Shown here one piece after another: positions 33,972 through 40,977 of a DNA stretch of 64,000 nucleotides; within the stretch, counting starts at the first letter, position 1, and each line of letters opens with the position of its first letter. The position numbers and the translations under genes are program-made. The notes beneath the pieces are model-generated. The model did not search any database and was not told the DNA's origin. It worked only from the letters and a program-made list of their open reading frames with translations. This DNA comes from an uncultured Gemmatimonadota bacterium. Its GTDB lineage: Bacteria; Gemmatimonadota; Gemmatimonadetes; Gemmatimonadales; Gemmatimonadaceae. The stretch covers positions 1-64,000 of the forward strand of contig CAIRYG010000007.1 of assembly GCA_903882745.1 (NCBI GenBank), written 5' to 3'.

Positions 33972-34406
33972 TTAGTCGGGGACAAGCTCCTGGAGCGCCA
34001 AGCGCTTCGCGACCAAGTCGGCCAGTGTGACCCCGTCGAGCACCGCGAGAAACGCGGCGAGCGCGCGGTCGAGCGTGCCGGCAAGCATGCACTTGGGCGC
34101 GATCGGGCAGGATACCTCGCCATGTAGCTCGAAGCACTCGACGAGTGCCATGCTCTCTTCGGTGGCCCTCACGACATCGCCAACGATGATGGCCTCCGGT
34201 GGCTTGGCGAGTTTAACGCCGCCAGATCGACCGCGAGAGGTCTCCACATAACCGAGATGCGAGAGACGTCCGACCACCTTGAACAGGTGGTCTTCGGACA
34301 TGCCCATCCGTCGGGCGATGTCAGAAACGCGGAGCAATTCGTCGTCGCTGATCGCGAGTAAAGTCAAGCAGCGTAATGCGTTATCGGTGTATCGCGTGAG
34401 GCGCAT
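33972..34406 (-). CDS. nsrR: Rrf2-family regulator, NsrR-like (nitric-oxide-sensing Fe-S repressor)
   Basis: A 144-residue winged-helix repressor that would lose DNA binding when its cluster meets nitric oxide. The N-terminus MRLTRYTDNALRCL carries Asp8, which completes the cluster in some NsrR proteins. The recognition helix region is SDIARRMGMSEDHLFKVV. Three cysteines stand at 91, 100 and 106 (ECF, then SCPIAPKC). The E. coli NsrR spacing is 91/96/102, so the loop here is longer, as in some other Rrf2 clades. Position decides the call: it is divergent from nosZ, with a NsrR-type site between them. IscR or RirA remain possible by sequence. Confidence 0.82.
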   Translation of the reverse strand: MRLTRYTDNALRCLTLLAISDDELLRVSDIARRMGMSEDHLFKVVGRLSHLGYVETSRGRSGGVKLAKPPEAIIVGDVVRATEESMALVECFELHGEVSCPIAPKCMLAGTLDRALAAFLAVLDGVTLADLVAKRLALQELVPD

Positions 34407-34467
34407 GGTGCCCTCCGGTGATCAACGTAAGGGAAAGACGGACGGAAGTTCGGGGTCTCTCGGACAT

Positions 34468-34496
34468 TTGAAGTTGCAAATAAGATGCAGTTTAAA
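34468..34496 (+). promoter_or_regulatory. candidate nosZ promoter
   Basis: TTGAAG (34468-34473) and TTTAAA (34491-34496) are separated by exactly 17 bases and lie about 80 bases before the nosZ ATG. This is among the few AT-rich stretches in a GC-rich window. The -10 is a 4/6 match, so confidence is moderate. Confidence 0.5.
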
Positions 34497-34504
34497 TGCG
34501 TTCC
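34482..34504. promoter_or_regulatory. candidate NsrR operator overlapping the nosZ promoter
   Basis: Left half AAGATGCAGTT (34482-34492) matches the 11-base NsrR half-site consensus AANATGCATTT at all but one position. After a one-base spacer, AAATGCGTTCC (34494-34504) matches the inverted half at most positions. A third, weaker copy, AAGTTGCAAAT (34471-34481), abuts the left half as a direct repeat. The site covers the -10 box, the expected place for a repressor. Confidence 0.6.
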
Positions 34505-34576: not shown

Positions 34577-36595
34577 ATGGCAGTAACGCAGAAGTCCCGC
34601 TGGATCACCGGCGGCGCGCTGATCGCGGCAACGTTGGTTGCAGCGTACGCCTGCGCTCCGCGCAGTGGCAGTGGTGGTGGTTCGCTTGCGGTTGCGAGCG
34701 ATGCAGCCCAACGGACATACGTGGCACCGGGCAGTTACGATGAATTCTATGCGTTTCTCTCCGGCGGATTCAACGGCCAAATTGGAGTGTACGGACTTCC
34801 CTCCGGGCGCCGGCTCAAAACGATTCCGGTCTTTTCGCAGTATCCGGAGAACGGATACGGATATAACGAAGAAACCAAACCGATGTTGAACACCTCCTAC
34901 GGCTTTGTGCCGTGGGATGACACGCATCACCCCGCACTCTCGCAGACCAACGGGGAGGATGACGGTCGCTGGCTCTTCATCAACGCCAACAACACGCCGC
35001 GCATCGCGCGTATCGACCTCTCCCGCATGGAGACGGACGAAATCATTGAAATTCCGAACGCGGCCGGCAATCACGGCTCCCCCTTTGTGACCGCCAACAG
35101 CGAATACGTCATTAGCTCGACGCGATTCTCTGTGCCGGTGCCTAACACCGACGTGCCCATCAGCGACTTCAAGAAGCGCTTCAAGGGGCAGATCGCCTTC
35201 ATCAAGGCGAACGAGCCGGGGAAAATGGAGATTGCCTTCCAGATGATCCTCCCAGGCTTCGACTACGACTTGGCGCGCGCCGGAAAGGGGCCGAGCCATG
35301 GGTGGATGTTCCTCACCACGTACAACACGGAGCAGGCCAACTCGCTGCTCGAGGTCAATGCCTCACAAAACGACAAAGATTTCGTCGCCGCCATCAACTG
35401 GAAGGCGATTGAAGCCTGCGTGAAGGCGGGCAAGGCAAAGCCGACCCCCGCCGAGTATCTGCATAACACAATTGACCCGTTCACGCGCACAGCCAAGACG
35501 GAAAAGGTCACGAGTGTGAATCAACTGGTGGCCAAGGACTGCCCAGGCTCGATCTATCTGCTCCCGACCCCAAAGTCGCCGCATGGCGCCGACGTGGACC
35601 CGACGGGCGAGTACATCGTGGCCGGCGGCAAGCTCGCGACGGTCATTCCGGTGCATTCGTTCAGCAAGATGATCAAAGCCATCGCCGCCAAGGAGTTCGA
35701 AGGGGAGATCGAAGGAATCCCGGTGCTCAAGTATGCGTCCACTCTTGCCGGCGAAGTGAAAAATCCAGGCCTCGGGCCGCTTCACACCGAATTCGACGGG
35801 AAGGGCTACGCCTACACCTCCTTCTTCATCTCCTCTGAAGTGGTGAAGTGGAAGCTCGGCACTTGGGAAGTCGTGGATCGCGTTCCGACGTACTACTCGA
35901 TCGGGCATCTCATGATTCCGGGCGGCGGCACCATGAAGCCGAAGCCGAAGTACCTGCTCGCGCTCAACAAGATCACCAAGGATCGGTATCTCCCGACTGG
36001 TCCGGAGCTCGCGCAGAGCGCCCAGCTCTACGACATCTCTGGCGCAAAAATGAAGCTGCTGCTCGACTTCCCAACGGAAGGCGAACCGCACTATGCACAG
36101 GCCATTGAAGCGTCAAAGATTCGCGAACAGCAGGTGAAGTTCTACAAGCTCGCCGAGAACAAGCATCCGCAGGTGGCACGTGCCGAAAAGGAGACCGGCG
36201 TCAGTCGCGACGGGAAGAAAGTGCACGTCCGAATGACGGCGATCCGCTCGCACTTCGCCCCAGATAACATCGAAGGGGTGCAGGTCGGTGACACCGTGCT
36301 CTTCCACATCACGAACCTTGAGCAGGACTGGGACGTGCCGCACGGCTTCGCCATCATGGGCAACCAGAACGGCGAGCTGCTGATTATGCCCGGCGAAACA
36401 CGCACGCTGAAGTGGGTGCCTGGCAAGCCGGGCGTGTACCCGATGTACTGCACGGACTTCTGTTCGGCGCTGCATCAGGAGATGCAGGGGTACGTCCGTG
36501 TGTCACCGCTCGGCAGCTCAGTACCGCTCAGTGGTACGCTGTCAAAGGGGCCGGGTGCCCCAGTTGCCGCCAAGGCCGACGAGAAAAAAAAGTAA
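34577..36595 (+). CDS. nosZ: nitrous oxide reductase, clade II (Sec-type)
   Basis: Reduces N2O to N2 in the periplasm. At 672 residues it carries an ordinary hydrophobic signal (WITGGALIAATLVAAYAC) without a twin-arginine motif, possibly lipidated at Cys26; this marks the Sec-type clade II. The beta-propeller shows CuZ histidine segments (DDTHH, PHGAD, GPLHTEFDG, EPHYAQ), and the cupredoxin domain has the CuA set YCTDFCSALHQEM (Cys625, Cys629, His633, Met636). A GAGG site lies 7 bases before ATG. The stop overlaps the next gene as TAATG. The Lys-rich tail ends KADEKKK. Confidence 0.97.
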   Translation: MAVTQKSRWITGGALIAATLVAAYACAPRSGSGGGSLAVASDAAQRTYVAPGSYDEFYAFLSGGFNGQIGVYGLPSGRRLKTIPVFSQYPENGYGYNEETKPMLNTSYGFVPWDDTHHPALSQTNGEDDGRWLFINANNTPRIARIDLSRMETDEIIEIPNAAGNHGSPFVTANSEYVISSTRFSVPVPNTDVPISDFKKRFKGQIAFIKANEPGKMEIAFQMILPGFDYDLARAGKGPSHGWMFLTTYNTEQANSLLEVNASQNDKDFVAAINWKAIEACVKAGKAKPTPAEYLHNTIDPFTRTAKTEKVTSVNQLVAKDCPGSIYLLPTPKSPHGADVDPTGEYIVAGGKLATVIPVHSFSKMIKAIAAKEFEGEIEGIPVLKYASTLAGEVKNPGLGPLHTEFDGKGYAYTSFFISSEVVKWKLGTWEVVDRVPTYYSIGHLMIPGGGTMKPKPKYLLALNKITKDRYLPTGPELAQSAQLYDISGAKMKLLLDFPTEGEPHYAQAIEASKIREQQVKFYKLAENKHPQVARAEKETGVSRDGKKVHVRMTAIRSHFAPDNIEGVQVGDTVLFHITNLEQDWDVPHGFAIMGNQNGELLIMPGETRTLKWVPGKPGVYPMYCTDFCSALHQEMQGYVRVSPLGSSVPLSGTLSKGPGAPVAAKADEKKK

Positions 36596-37710
36596 TGGCG
36601 TCGATGGTGGGCGGGGCCATTCGGTCCCGTCCCACCCTCGAGCCCACCGGAGATTCGATCGTGTCGCGCACCGCTCGCTGGCTCATCGTCTTCGCCTCGC
36701 TCCTGCTGGCGACGGGATTCGTCCTCCCACTCTGGCATGTGGGGCTGATTGCACCGCAGTATCCCGAAGGACTCGGGATGCTGATTCGCGTGAACACGGT
36801 GGTGGGCGTCAAGGAACAAGATCTGAACAGCATCAACGGTTTGAATCACTACATCGGAATGAAAAAGATTGAACCCGATACGATCCCAGAGCTCAAGCTC
36901 ATGCCGATTATCCTTGGCGTGCTTGTGATGACGGGCCTCGGTGTGGCCGCACTCGGGAATCGCTGGGTTTTGGTGGGTTGGGCGACAGCGCTTGGTGGTC
37001 TGCAGCTCGCCGGGCTCGTCGACTTCTGGAAATGGGAGTACGACTACGGTCACGATCTCGACATGGTGCATGCCATCATCAAGATCCCCGGCATGACCTA
37101 TCAGCCGCCGGTGCTCGGATCTCGCCAGCTGTTGAACTTCACGGCAACCTCGTGGCCCGCATCTGGCGGATGGCTGTGGGTGCTTGCGGCGGTCTCGGCG
37201 GCTGGGGCCCTCTATCTCACCTTCCGCGGTCGCGCCGCGCGCACGAGGTCCATGGCCCCGCATCCATTGGCTACGGCCGCACTGTTCGCGATGCTCGCAC
37301 TCTCGGCCTGCGCCCCCGTGGGTCCTGCGCCTATCGCCCTCGGCACAGATGCCTGCGACCAATGCCGGATGACCATCTCGGATGCTCGCTTCGGCGGTGA
37401 AGCCATCACCGCCAAAGGGCGCATCCTACGCTTTGACTCGGTGGAGTGCCTCGCGGCCTGGGCCGCCACAGGTGAGCAGGGAAAATCCGCGCACCTCTAC
37501 GTCATCGACTTACAGCACCCCGGACGCTTCGTTCGCGCCGACTCCGCTGGCTTTCTACGCGGCGCGATGCTGGGAAGTCCAATGGGTGGTGCCGTGCTCG
37601 GGTTCATCTCACTCGCCAAGGCAGAGGAACAGCGTACCATGCTCGGCGGGTCCGTGGTGGGATGGGCGGCGCTGGTGGACGCCAAACGAATCGCGCGTGG
37701 ACCCGGGTGA
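36595..37710 (+). CDS. nosL: NosB-like membrane protein fused in frame to NosL copper chaperone
   Basis: One open frame of 371 residues combines two proteins that are usually separate. Residues 1-215 have four hydrophobic segments (about 29-50, 102-120, 124-143, 192-210) and resemble NosB of clade II nos clusters. Residues 220-371 are NosL: MAPHPLATAALFAMLALSAC, whose LSAC lipobox ends at Cys239, then the copper motif DACDQCRM (Cys254, Cys257) and FDSVECLAAW. There is no stop between them. ATG 37252 preceded by GAGG could start NosL separately as a 152-residue lipoprotein. Charge pattern (RGRAARTRS before the last helix) puts the NosL part in the periplasm either way. Confidence 0.8.
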   Translation: MASMVGGAIRSRPTLEPTGDSIVSRTARWLIVFASLLLATGFVLPLWHVGLIAPQYPEGLGMLIRVNTVVGVKEQDLNSINGLNHYIGMKKIEPDTIPELKLMPIILGVLVMTGLGVAALGNRWVLVGWATALGGLQLAGLVDFWKWEYDYGHDLDMVHAIIKIPGMTYQPPVLGSRQLLNFTATSWPASGGWLWVLAAVSAAGALYLTFRGRAARTRSMAPHPLATAALFAMLALSACAPVGPAPIALGTDACDQCRMTISDARFGGEAITAKGRILRFDSVECLAAWAATGEQGKSAHLYVIDLQHPGRFVRADSAGFLRGAMLGSPMGGAVLGFISLAKAEEQRTMLGGSVVGWAALVDAKRIARGPG

Positions 37711-38963
37711 TGGTGTCGACTCGGCAGGTGGGGATCGTTGGGCTGCTCGGCATCAGTGTCGTGCTGTGTGTGCGCGTAGCGGCGGCGCAAATCGTCGTCG
37801 ATCCGCGCGGACCAGTGCGGAGCATTACCCAAGCGCTCGAGATGGTAAAGGCAGGAGGGCGGATTACCGTGCGCGCGGGCACCTATCGCGAGCCGACGCT
37901 CATAGTGCGGACCGCCGGTGTCACCCTGGAAGGGGAGGGCTGGCCCGTGCTCGACGGGGAAAGCCAGCGGGCAGTGTTGATTGTGACCGCGGATGACGTG
38001 ACGATTCGCGGACTCGAGGTGGCGCGCACCGGGGTCTCCAATATCGAGGACCGCGCGGGCATTCGTGTGCGCGATGCCGCACACTGCCGCATCGAGCACA
38101 ACCGACTCCGCGACAATCTCTTTGGGATCTATCTACAGCGCGCGCTCGGCTGTGTGATTGCGGATAACGACGTCACAGCGCACGGCGACGGGCAGTCAAC
38201 AAGCGGCAACGGTATCCATCTGTGGTACTCGCCCCAGACGACGGTCGAGCGCAATCACATTGCCGGCCAACGAGACGGTATCTATTTCGAGTTCTCCGCG
38301 GGCGGTATCACGCGACACAATACGAGCGAACGCAATCAGCGGTACGGCCTACACTTCATGTTCTCCGACTCGTGCCGCTACGAGTTCAATACGTTTCGCG
38401 CGAACAATTCCGGCGTCGCCGTGATGTACAGCCGCGGGATTACCATCCACCACAATCGATTTGAACAATCCCTCGGCGGCGCGGCCTACGGGTTGCTCCT
38501 GAAGGAAATCCTCGGCGGTGAAATCTCGGAGAACGCATTCTCCGAGAACTCGACCGGGATGTATCTCGAAGGCTCGTCGCATTTAGCGGTGCGGGACAAC
38601 GACTTCGTCTCGAACGGATGGGCGGCGAAAGTGCTCGCGAGTGCCGTTGATAATACGTTCACCGGTAATCGCTTCGAGGGCAATGCGTTCGACGTGTCGA
38701 CGAACTCACGGTCGTCGAACTCTACCTTCGATCGCAACTGGTGGGATGCGTACAAAGGCTACGATCTCGATCGTGACGGCGTCGGTGATACGCCATTTTA
38801 TCCGGTCCGCCTGTTTGCCCTCATCGTGGAGCAGCATCAACCCACGCTCGTGCTTCTGCGCAGCCCCATGGTGGCCGTCCTCGACGCGGCAGAGCGCGTG
38901 TTTCCCGTGCTGACGCCAGAAGCGCTCGTCGACAAACACCCGCTCATGAGGTCACCTCGATGA
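37710..38963 (+). CDS. nosD: NosD, periplasmic copper-site maturation protein
   Basis: Works with the NosFY ABC transporter in assembling the CuZ site of NosZ. ATG 37710 overlaps the NosL stop (TGATG) and gives the signal peptide MVSTRQVGIVGLLGISVVLC ending at AAAQ. The rest is a right-handed parallel beta-helix of pectate-lyase/CASH repeats: GIYLQRALGCVIADND, GIHLWYSPQTTVERNH, GIYFEFSAGGITRHNT, GLHFMFSDSCRYEFNTF, GVAVMYSRGITIHHNRF. 417 residues, normal for NosD. The stop overlaps nosF by 4 bases. Confidence 0.95.
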   Translation: MVSTRQVGIVGLLGISVVLCVRVAAAQIVVDPRGPVRSITQALEMVKAGGRITVRAGTYREPTLIVRTAGVTLEGEGWPVLDGESQRAVLIVTADDVTIRGLEVARTGVSNIEDRAGIRVRDAAHCRIEHNRLRDNLFGIYLQRALGCVIADNDVTAHGDGQSTSGNGIHLWYSPQTTVERNHIAGQRDGIYFEFSAGGITRHNTSERNQRYGLHFMFSDSCRYEFNTFRANNSGVAVMYSRGITIHHNRFEQSLGGAAYGLLLKEILGGEISENAFSENSTGMYLEGSSHLAVRDNDFVSNGWAAKVLASAVDNTFTGNRFEGNAFDVSTNSRSSNSTFDRNWWDAYKGYDLDRDGVGDTPFYPVRLFALIVEQHQPTLVLLRSPMVAVLDAAERVFPVLTPEALVDKHPLMRSPR

Positions 38964-39727
38964 TTGCGCTCCGCGGCATCGATAAGCGGTACGGGACGCA
39001 AATTGCACTCCATGATGTCTCACTCGAGGTGCGCCCTGGAGCCGTAACAGCGCTCGTGGGCCCAAATGGATCGGGAAAGACCACTCTCATCAAGACTATC
39101 CTCGGGCTGACCCGACCCGACGCTGGGACGGTAGCCCTCGCCGGTGTGCCGATCGACCGCGAGGGCGAATATCGTCGGCACCTCGGCTACATGCCACAAG
39201 CGGGCCATTTCCCTGAGCATCTCGCTGTTGGGGAGGTCATCCAGTTGGTGGATGCCCTGCGCCGCGGGATTGCGGTAGACGACGATCTGCTGCACGCCTA
39301 TGACCTCGGGGCAATCTGGGAGAAAAAGGTCAGCGCCCTCTCTGGTGGGACACGCCAAAAACTCAGTGCCGCGATCGCTTTTCGCTATGCGCCGCAGGTG
39401 TTGATTCTTGACGAGCCGACCGCTGGACTCGATCCGCTCGCGTGCGGAATCCTCAAAGACAAAATTCGGCGCGTTCGTCAGGCCGGCTGCACGGTCGTCA
39501 TCACGTCACACATTATGTCGGAGCTCGAAGAGCTTGCCGATGACATCGCCTTTCTGTGCGATGCACAACTCCAGTTTTCCGGCCCGGTGGTCGCCCTGTT
39601 GGAGCGAACCAAGCAACCGCGGCTCGAAGGGGCCGTGGCGGCGCTCCTGCGCGCGCGCAGCGGCTCGCGCCCCGATGCGCCGCCGCGCTACGACGTAGAA
39701 AACATTCCGACGCTGGAGCGCCCGTGA
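38960..39727 (+). CDS. nosF: NosF, ABC transporter ATP-binding subunit
   Basis: Energises the NosDFY complex. Walker A is GPNGSGKTT (34-42), the signature LSGGTRQKLS (127-136), Walker B VLILDEPTAGLDP (147-159) and the switch histidine ITSHIMSELEEL. 255 residues, starting MIALRGIDKRYG. It overlaps nosD and nosY by four bases each. Confidence 0.95.
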   Translation: MIALRGIDKRYGTQIALHDVSLEVRPGAVTALVGPNGSGKTTLIKTILGLTRPDAGTVALAGVPIDREGEYRRHLGYMPQAGHFPEHLAVGEVIQLVDALRRGIAVDDDLLHAYDLGAIWEKKVSALSGGTRQKLSAAIAFRYAPQVLILDEPTAGLDPLACGILKDKIRRVRQAGCTVVITSHIMSELEELADDIAFLCDAQLQFSGPVVALLERTKQPRLEGAVAALLRARSGSRPDAPPRYDVENIPTLERP

Positions 39728-40512
39728 CCACGACACGTCTTGTGGTCGTTGCCGGCATCCGGGACATGGCCGGCAATCGGTGGCTCGCCGCATACTTTGC
39801 CGCGTTCGTCGTGGTTGCCCAGAGCCTCTTCTGGTTCGGGGGAACGGGGCCGCAGGTTGTCCTCAGTCTGCTCAACGTCGTGTTGATGGTTGTTCCGCTC
39901 GTCTCGCTCGTGTTCGGAGCCATGCACGTCTACGCATCGCGCGAGTTCGTGGAGCTGCTGCTGGCACAGCCCGTCCGTCGGCGCGATCTCTTCACGGGAC
40001 TATACCTTGGGCTCGCGCTCCCGCTGACGGCCGCTTTTGTGCTTGGTGCTGGGATCCCCGTCCTCATGAACCGTGGATTCGGTGCAAACGGGATCGCGGT
40101 GCTCGCGTTACTCGTTGCGGGCGCGGGACTGACCTTCTCCTGCGTGGCGATTGCCACTTGGATTGCCCTCCGTACCGATGATCGCCTCAAGGGAATCGGG
40201 ATGGCACTCGCTGCCTGGTTGGCCACCAGCTTGTTGTACGATGGTGCCGTGCTCGCCTTTGCCTCGGCCTTTGGTGATTGGCCGATCGAGAAGCCAATGC
40301 TGGCCATGATGGTCACCAATCCGGTCGACCTCGCGCGCGTGCTCGTGCTCGCGCAGGTCGACGCATCAGCGCTGATGGGCTACACCGGGGCGCTGTTCGA
40401 GCGGACCTTCGGTTCGGCGCTCGGCAGTCTGGTCGCGCTCGGCGCGCTTGCCCTCTGGTGCGTGGGGCCGTGGTTCTTGGCCGCCCGTCGGTTTGATGCC
40501 CGCGATTTCTGA
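39724..40512 (+). CDS. nosY: NosY, ABC transporter membrane subunit
   Basis: Six-helix permease partner of NosF. GTG 39724 overlaps the nosF TGA as GTGA and gives a 262-residue protein beginning with MTTTRLVVVAGIRDMAGNRW. Hydrophobic segments include LAAYFAAFVVVAQSLFWFGG, VLLVAGAGLTFSC-like and LGSLVALGALALWCVGPWFL, and the elbow AREFVELLLAQPVRR matches the NosY/ABC-2 fold. The longer frame back to 39556 lies inside nosF and is rejected. Confidence 0.92.
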   Translation: MTTTRLVVVAGIRDMAGNRWLAAYFAAFVVVAQSLFWFGGTGPQVVLSLLNVVLMVVPLVSLVFGAMHVYASREFVELLLAQPVRRRDLFTGLYLGLALPLTAAFVLGAGIPVLMNRGFGANGIAVLALLVAGAGLTFSCVAIATWIALRTDDRLKGIGMALAAWLATSLLYDGAVLAFASAFGDWPIEKPMLAMMVTNPVDLARVLVLAQVDASALMGYTGALFERTFGSALGSLVALGALALWCVGPWFLAARRFDARDF

Positions 40513-40548: not shown

Positions 40549-40977
40549 ATGTCGATGACCCTGAAACTCTCGTTGCTCACGCTGACCGTTGTTGCCGTAA
40601 CTGCCTGCGGCGGTGATCAATCCGCGGGAGGAGCGGGCGCGACGAGTGCTCCCCCCGCGTCTGCGGTTGCTGCCACTGGGGTCGTGCACGAAATCATCAT
40701 GACGACGGACGACAAGGGGAGTTCATTCACCCCGAGCACAATCACGGCAAAGCCTGGTGATATGCTGCGCTTCAAGCTGGCGGTCGGCGTCCACAACGTG
40801 GACTTTCTCGCTGATTCAAATCCGGGAAAGAAAGGGCTCCCCGCAGTGAGCACGTTCCTTCAGTTACCAGGACAGACGTATGAGGTACCGCTGAACTTTG
40901 GGGAAGGAAACTTCTACTTTCAGTGTGATCCCCACGCAGCGCTCGGCATGCGTGGGCACGTCACCGTGGCGAAGTAG
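40549..40977 (+). CDS. type-1 copper lipoprotein (plastocyanin/azurin-like cupredoxin)
   Basis: A 142-residue exported blue-copper protein. The signal ends in the lipobox VTAC (Cys20), followed by an Ala/Gly/Ser linker of 25 residues. The cupredoxin domain has a complete type-1 copper ligand set: His82 (VHNV), Cys126 (FQCDPH), His129 and Met134 (GMRGH). It is 36 bases downstream of nosY, so it is probably part of the nos operon. A membrane-anchored blue-copper protein here is a good candidate electron donor to NosZ; copper delivery is the alternative. Its 3' end overlaps the convergent glycosyltransferase by 17 bases. Confidence 0.85.
   Translation: MSMTLKLSLLTLTVVAVTACGGDQSAGGAGATSAPPASAVAATGVVHEIIMTTDDKGSSFTPSTITAKPGDMLRFKLAVGVHNVDFLADSNPGKKGLPAVSTFLQLPGQTYEVPLNFGEGNFYFQCDPHAALGMRGHVTVAK

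Follow-up and report, generated by a model that had tools for sequence, protein, structure and literature searches.

The best-characterized relatives of the regulator described here are NsrR proteins, in which an iron-sulfur cluster is held by three cysteines and Asp8 of the partner subunit, and Arg12 links the cluster to the DNA-reading helix (PMC5411485). A structure of NsrR from Streptomyces coelicolor bound to the 23-bp hmpA1 operator is available (7b0c), and the classical targets of NsrR include ytfE and hmp (PMC1274295). In the related RirA, position 8 is occupied by Asn, and introduction of Asp8 abolishes iron sensing (PMC10510648). NsrR of Magnetospirillum gryphiswaldense binds the nosZ promoter and acts as a repressor, and NO weakens the binding (PMC11014258). 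Rrf2 genes were found to adjoin clade II nosZ in metagenome scaffolds (PMC6264515). With these two sources, the view of an earlier note that NsrR control of nosZ is only sparsely described appears fair, and the literature searched yielded nothing on the operator, on a circuit in Gemmatimonadota or on an NsrR dedicated to nosZ. How clade II N2O reductases are switched on is poorly known, and their carriers include non-denitrifying N2O sinks.

The window, a stretch of 64,000 nucleotides from a 3.06-Mb Gemmatimonadaceae genome (G000, contig C7) with relatives among named records that belong to the Gemmatimonadota and mostly to the Gemmatimonadaceae, contains a divergent Rrf2 gene and nosZ separated by a 170-bp spacer, with a NosB/NosL-like frame, nosD, genes for an ABC ATPase and a permease, and that for a plastocyanin-like protein following 3' of nosZ (Table 1). 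NO-relieved repression of nosZ by an NsrR-type protein acting through a predicted operator in this spacer is, judged from the comparisons given below, quite probably the best explanation of the arrangement. The operator reads AAGTTGCAAAT-A-AGATGCAGTTT (as one string AAGTTGCAAATAAGATGCAGTTT), with the left half at 34471-34481, the centre at 34482, and the right half at 34483-34493. In the downstream cluster, the NosB-like and NosL-like segments share one uninterrupted frame, which suggests a NosB-NosL fusion as known from some flavobacteria (PMC9697520); both names derive from reading of the sequence and from that paper, with no profile behind them.

Table 1. Features of the nosZ locus (window positions; strand. 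for the operator).
Feature	Position	Strand	Basis
NsrR-like Rrf2-family regulator, 144 aa, divergent from nosZ	33972..34406	-	PF02082, S. coelicolor NsrR (ScNsrR) match, tree, structural model
CGGACA, candidate -35-like element	34461..34466	+	kept as YNGAC[AT]; function inferred
TTGAAG-N17-TTTAAA, promoter named in the earlier note	34468..34496	+	letters present, conservation absent
Predicted NsrR-type operator, 11-1-11 inverted repeat	34471..34493	.	matrix, pattern, orthologous position
nosZ, Sec-dependent clade II nitrous-oxide reductase, presumed target	34577..36595	+	TIGR04246, 942 bits (cut-off 625)
NosB-like membrane protein and NosL-like lipoprotein, presumed same transcript	36661..37710	+	open frame 36412-37710
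nosD	37710..38963	+	TIGR04247, 419.7 bits
nosF-like ABC ATPase	38960..39727	+	ABC ATPase profiles, cluster position
nosY-like permease	39721..40512	+	cluster position, hydrophobic ORF
Plastocyanin-like copper lipoprotein (final cluster gene)	40549..40977	+	TIGR02656, 51 bits (below cut-off)

The letters of the spacer are unremarkable by themselves. Ten half-site matches with ≤2 mismatches to the enterobacterial consensus were counted in the window versus 18.2 expected, so a half-site alone carries little weight; the full enterobacterial 23-mer consensus gave zero matches with ≤3 mismatches in the window, and the best dyad of the spacer (7/11) was equalled by 67% of shuffles (P = 0.67). The evidence therefore had to come from comparison across genomes. 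nosZ was detected in 132 of 395 genomes of the phylum, and at 36 of the 110 loci with upstream DNA it was adjoined by a divergent Rrf2 relative with >50% identity. The 11-1-11 inverted repeat recurred in these Rrf2-nosZ spacers at comparable positions upstream of nosZ; examples are AAGATGCAAGTAATATGCATCTT and AAGGTGCAAGTAAAATGCACCTT in genus g2, AAGTGGCATCTAACATACCACTT in g10, ATCTGGTATGTGAAATCCGAGAT in g4 and ATCCTCTACTAAGAATAGAGGAT in g12. The window's own site and its orthologs, such as AAGATGCAAGTAATATGCATCTT of the sister genus, share the 23-bp 11-1-11 architecture with AAGATGCA-type half-sites by which NsrR operators are recognized. Because the sequence of the operator diverges from genus to genus, the sites in g4 and g12 are supported by dyad and position only. 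At register 34471-34493, the orthologous sites showed a mean symmetry of 7.1 matches out of 11 (31 loci), compared with 1.8-3.5 at all other shifts within 15 bases; since these 31 operators had been picked by eye at that very register, which biases the test, weight was placed on three unbiased tests instead.

A matrix built from g2 sites only ranked 34471 first among 63,978 window positions with 23.7 bits (next independent position, 1.6), and a g10-only matrix likewise put it first. When one genus at a time was left out, the expected site was the best within 400 bp upstream of nosZ at 20 of 20 loci (7.7-29.1 bits; g1, g2, g10, and g16). At the 74 nosZ loci that lack a neighbouring type-A Rrf2 gene, the median was -8.5 bits, and the single one exceeding 6 (10.9 bits) was that of genome G217, whose Rrf2 gene lies 2 kb away; the presence of the site depends on the regulator gene. 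At five loci added later from named records, the best dyad (9/11) stood at the predicted place. The pattern AAGNTGCANNTNANNTGCANNTT, which was partly shaped on the window's own site, had a single full match in the 3.06-Mb genome, the nosZ site, and in seven g2 genomes every exact operator match stood at nosZ. The earlier note had made its proposal of an NsrR-type operator on the nosZ promoter dependent on conservation of the motif before orthologous nosZ genes; this conservation was found, and the orthologous promoters support the proposal. The pairing of predicted operator and regulator is conserved across the Gemmatimonadaceae, a family of soil and water bacteria.

Several deviating loci were observed. 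Two genomes of the window's own genus (L018 in G235, L019 in G317) carry nosZ but neither the operator nor a neighbouring Rrf2 gene; close relatives have thus either lost this control or never acquired it. Conversely, a nosZ-type regulator is kept with no nosZ nearby at L129-L132 (G039, G073, G184, and G202), and the phylum-wide genome search gave no nosZ match in G039 and G073. At g10 loci L007-L012, L015, and L164, a second, weaker operator copy follows, its centre approximately 28 bp from that of the first (AAGCAGTATACAAGATACCACAT at L164, for instance), and a conserved GAAGGATACCGGA is found near the rrf2 start. In other families of the phylum (L069, L071, L074, L075, L078, L088, L107, and similar loci), a different Rrf2 protein, closer to the IscR side (approximately 30% identity, Glu at the place of Asp8), is encoded divergently from a cytochrome c gene located upstream of nosZ, and an A+T-rich palindrome of the form CATGATAATA...TATTATCATG separates the two genes; this arrangement has the appearance of a second, unrelated-looking nosZ switch.

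The regulator belongs to the Rrf2 superfamily (PF02082, 120.4 bits, cut-off 30, residues 3-133). Its best sequence match in the PDB was S. coelicolor NsrR over the full length (5n07, 5e-21), and an AlphaFold model obtained from the ortholog alignment (pLDDT 89) gave 7b0c as best fold match. Three cysteines and Asp8 had already been pointed out in the earlier note and were confirmed as Asp8, Cys91, Cys100, and Cys106; together with Arg12 they were invariant across 29 aligned orthologs, the C-X8-C spacing of the window's protein being one residue longer than in most of them. These are the residues expected of an NsrR, and the Asn8 of RirA was found in none of the aligned orthologs. Phylogenetic analysis placed the nosZ-linked regulators in one clade (support 97/93), nested in a group with NsrR from E. 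coli and S. coelicolor and with hmpA-linked proteins, and a 99/96 split separated this NsrR group from IscR and the second nosZ-linked type of Rrf2; few of the branchings within the NsrR/RirA group have support, and the tree is compatible with RirA as well as with NsrR. The NCBIfam NsrR model (PRK11014) gave 110.6 bits, below its cut-off of 182, and the hmpA-linked relatives (125-142 bits) fell below it as well, indicating a narrow model; for the missed cut-off, the assignment was lowered to NsrR-like. The highest NCBIfam score was obtained with the RirA model (141.8 bits, also below cut-off), whereas the IscR model gave 52 bits (cut-off 207) for a protein that lies outside the IscR clade. As arbiter between RirA and NsrR, these scores were uninformative, as hmpA-linked relatives score both ways. 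From these comparisons, the small gene beside nosZ most likely encodes an iron-sulfur repressor of the NO-sensing NsrR kind, and this divergently encoded Rrf2 protein in all likelihood binds the operator on the nosZ promoter.

The gene neighbourhoods of related regulators and operators bear on the signal. Relatives with 45-54% identity encoded on plasmids adjoin hmpA or globin genes in Roseomonas, Croceicoccus, Azospirillum, Lysinibacillus, and Paracoccus, and the Roseomonas hmpA spacer contains AAGGTGCAAGTCGTTTACACCTT, which equals the g2 half-site. Two relatives from alphaproteobacteria are encoded divergently from genes for nirK-like multicopper oxidases, and the sites there come near the canonical NsrR motif; a more distant Gemmatimonad relative adjoins genes for NnrS and a NirK-like protein. 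In g10, the nosZ-type operator also precedes the gene of a 65-aa ScdA_N protein (57.8 bits), which is followed by those of two membrane proteins; the operator was present in eight of eight g10 genomes with that gene, and three of these sites had escaped the pattern search and were found by the matrix alone. ScdA_N is the N-terminal domain of Ric/YtfE. The two membrane proteins of this operon (L191-L195, L199-L205, and L207; approximately 150 aa each) match different parts of COX1, one of them also weakly NnrS, and the operon is possibly an NO-handling unit under a nosZ-type operator. As to a regulon of NO-related genes, the ScdA_N operon was observed in g10, but the pattern search in the window's own genome gave nosZ only. 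In G217, the stretch that separates rrf2 from nosZ holds an ORF with an ScdA_N-like CCGG motif and, next to it, a gene for a 448-aa protein with multiple membrane spans and no Pfam match (L135, 1210-2553, minus strand). With hmpA, globin, nirK, NnrS, and ScdA_N as neighbours, NO is the likeliest signal of the nosZ regulator.

A cluster that senses iron, O2 or redox in the manner of RirA or IscR, on the same operator and with the same regulator, is an unlikely alternative for which several observations speak nevertheless. The RirA profile gave the top score, a RirA-like Sinorhizobium meliloti protein falls into the same broad clade, nosZ transcription in Gemmatimonas aurantiaca reportedly requires earlier exposure to O2 (as cited by PMC6264515), and the window's genome lacks known NO enzymes: NirK, NirS, and NorB were not found in it, nor were globin and ScdA_N, and of its matches to the COX1 family, one was strong and oxidase-like, one was a fusion resembling cbb3 CcoNO, and one was a weak fragment. 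A search for NnrS gave no match in this genome, but none in the controls either. Any NO would consequently come from outside or from minor chemistry. However, the RirA model also outscored the NsrR model for an hmpA-linked relative, RirA has Asn8 and loses iron sensing with Asp8 (PMC10510648), and all nosZ-linked regulators aligned carry Asp8 and Arg12, whereas the RirA-like control L190 carries Asn8. The neighbours listed above point to NO.

That the Rrf2 protein controls its own gene only, with nosZ driven otherwise and the shared spacer incidental, would fit the use of one 170-bp spacer by both divergent genes and the four genomes in which the regulator has no nosZ nearby. We consider this very improbable, because the G217 operator stands directly before nosZ although the regulator gene is 2 kb away, the g10 operator also precedes an unlinked operon, and the operator position is fairly constant relative to nosZ, whereas its distance to rrf2 varies from 55 to 187. 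Hardly tenable is an operator at 34482-34504 to which AAGTTGCAAAT would add a further half-site: AAGATGCAGTT at 34482-34492 does have a single mismatch to AANATGCATTT (the 10/11 half named in the earlier note), is the top half-site by the enterobacterial consensus, and places this overlapping register second with the g2 matrix (8.9 bits), but its right half, AAATGCGTTCC, is unconserved, its ortholog symmetry (3.35/11 at a shift of +11, 31 loci) is inside the noise range, and the g10 matrix gives it -9.1 bits. The earlier note, which had proposed this register, took the true left half of the operator, AAGTTGCAAAT, for a third tandem half-site and paired the region of the right half with the unconserved downstream stretch, so its register was shifted by 11 bases. 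In g10, a sister genus, the second copies indicate that such operators can stand in tandem.

The promoter overlapped by the operator was modelled in two ways. TTGAAG at 34468 and TTTAAA at 34491, 17 bases apart, are present as the earlier note had quoted them; the specific -10 and promoter call made from them were not conserved in orthologs. In 26 of 31 orthologous loci, a motif YNGAC[AT] recurred at a distance of 7-10 bases upstream of the operator, and it forms the first element of an alternative model, CGGACA-N17-GATGCA. Neither TTGAAG/TTTAAA nor YNGAC[AT]-N16-18 gave a convincing -10 in all loci. The operator overlaps either model, and both fit repression by occlusion.

According to the preferred reading, the NO-relieved repression of nosZ, the divergently encoded Rrf2 protein would be an NsrR-type [4Fe-4S] homodimer that, without NO, would sit on the 23-bp dyad over the nosZ core promoter and block transcription of the nos cluster, whose genes are presumably cotranscribed. 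The bound dimer would probably also repress its own gene, 64 bp off on the other side. NO would attack the cluster, which the three cysteines and the partner subunit's Asp8 would hold; the dimer would then come off the DNA, and N2O reductase would be made. We suggest, tentatively, that this is an NO-relieved repressor dedicated to a clade II N2O reductase in bacteria that themselves have neither a nitrite reductase nor an NO reductase: NO leaked by neighbours might cue a non-denitrifier to coming N2O, with repressor and operator having co-diverged genus by genus across the Gemmatimonadaceae. Such a conserved switch, made up of one gene next to its presumed target and with its ligand predicted and a site of 23 bp, lends itself to direct tests, and the operator provides a sequence rule by which the same control of nosZ can be spotted in genomes and metagenomes.

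Compared with the known systems, the regulator resembles S. coelicolor NsrR (5n07, 7b0c) in sequence, fold, Asp8, Arg12, the three cysteines, the 23-bp operator, and a tiny regulon. The S. coelicolor regulon consists of hmpA1, hmpA2, and nsrR, whereas the predicted target here is nosZ and no hmp or other globin gene was found in the window's genome; the cysteine spacing is X8-X5 here and X5-X5 in the S. coelicolor protein. RirA gives the closest NCBIfam score and falls into the same broad clade, but it has Asn8 in place of Asp8 and controls iron uptake genes. With the metagenome scaffolds, the locus shares the adjacency of Rrf2 and clade II nosZ; the accessible parts of that report (PMC6264515) do not work out operator, subfamily or signal, and its scaffolds include other groups, possibly with other Rrf2 subfamilies. 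With NsrR of M. gryphiswaldense, the regulator would share binding to the nosZ promoter, repression of nosZ, and weakening of the binding by NO. Whereas that protein is a global regulator of many genes (PMC11014258), the one described here is encoded next to nosZ, has a single pattern-matching site in its genome, and is associated with a clade II nosZ in another phylum.
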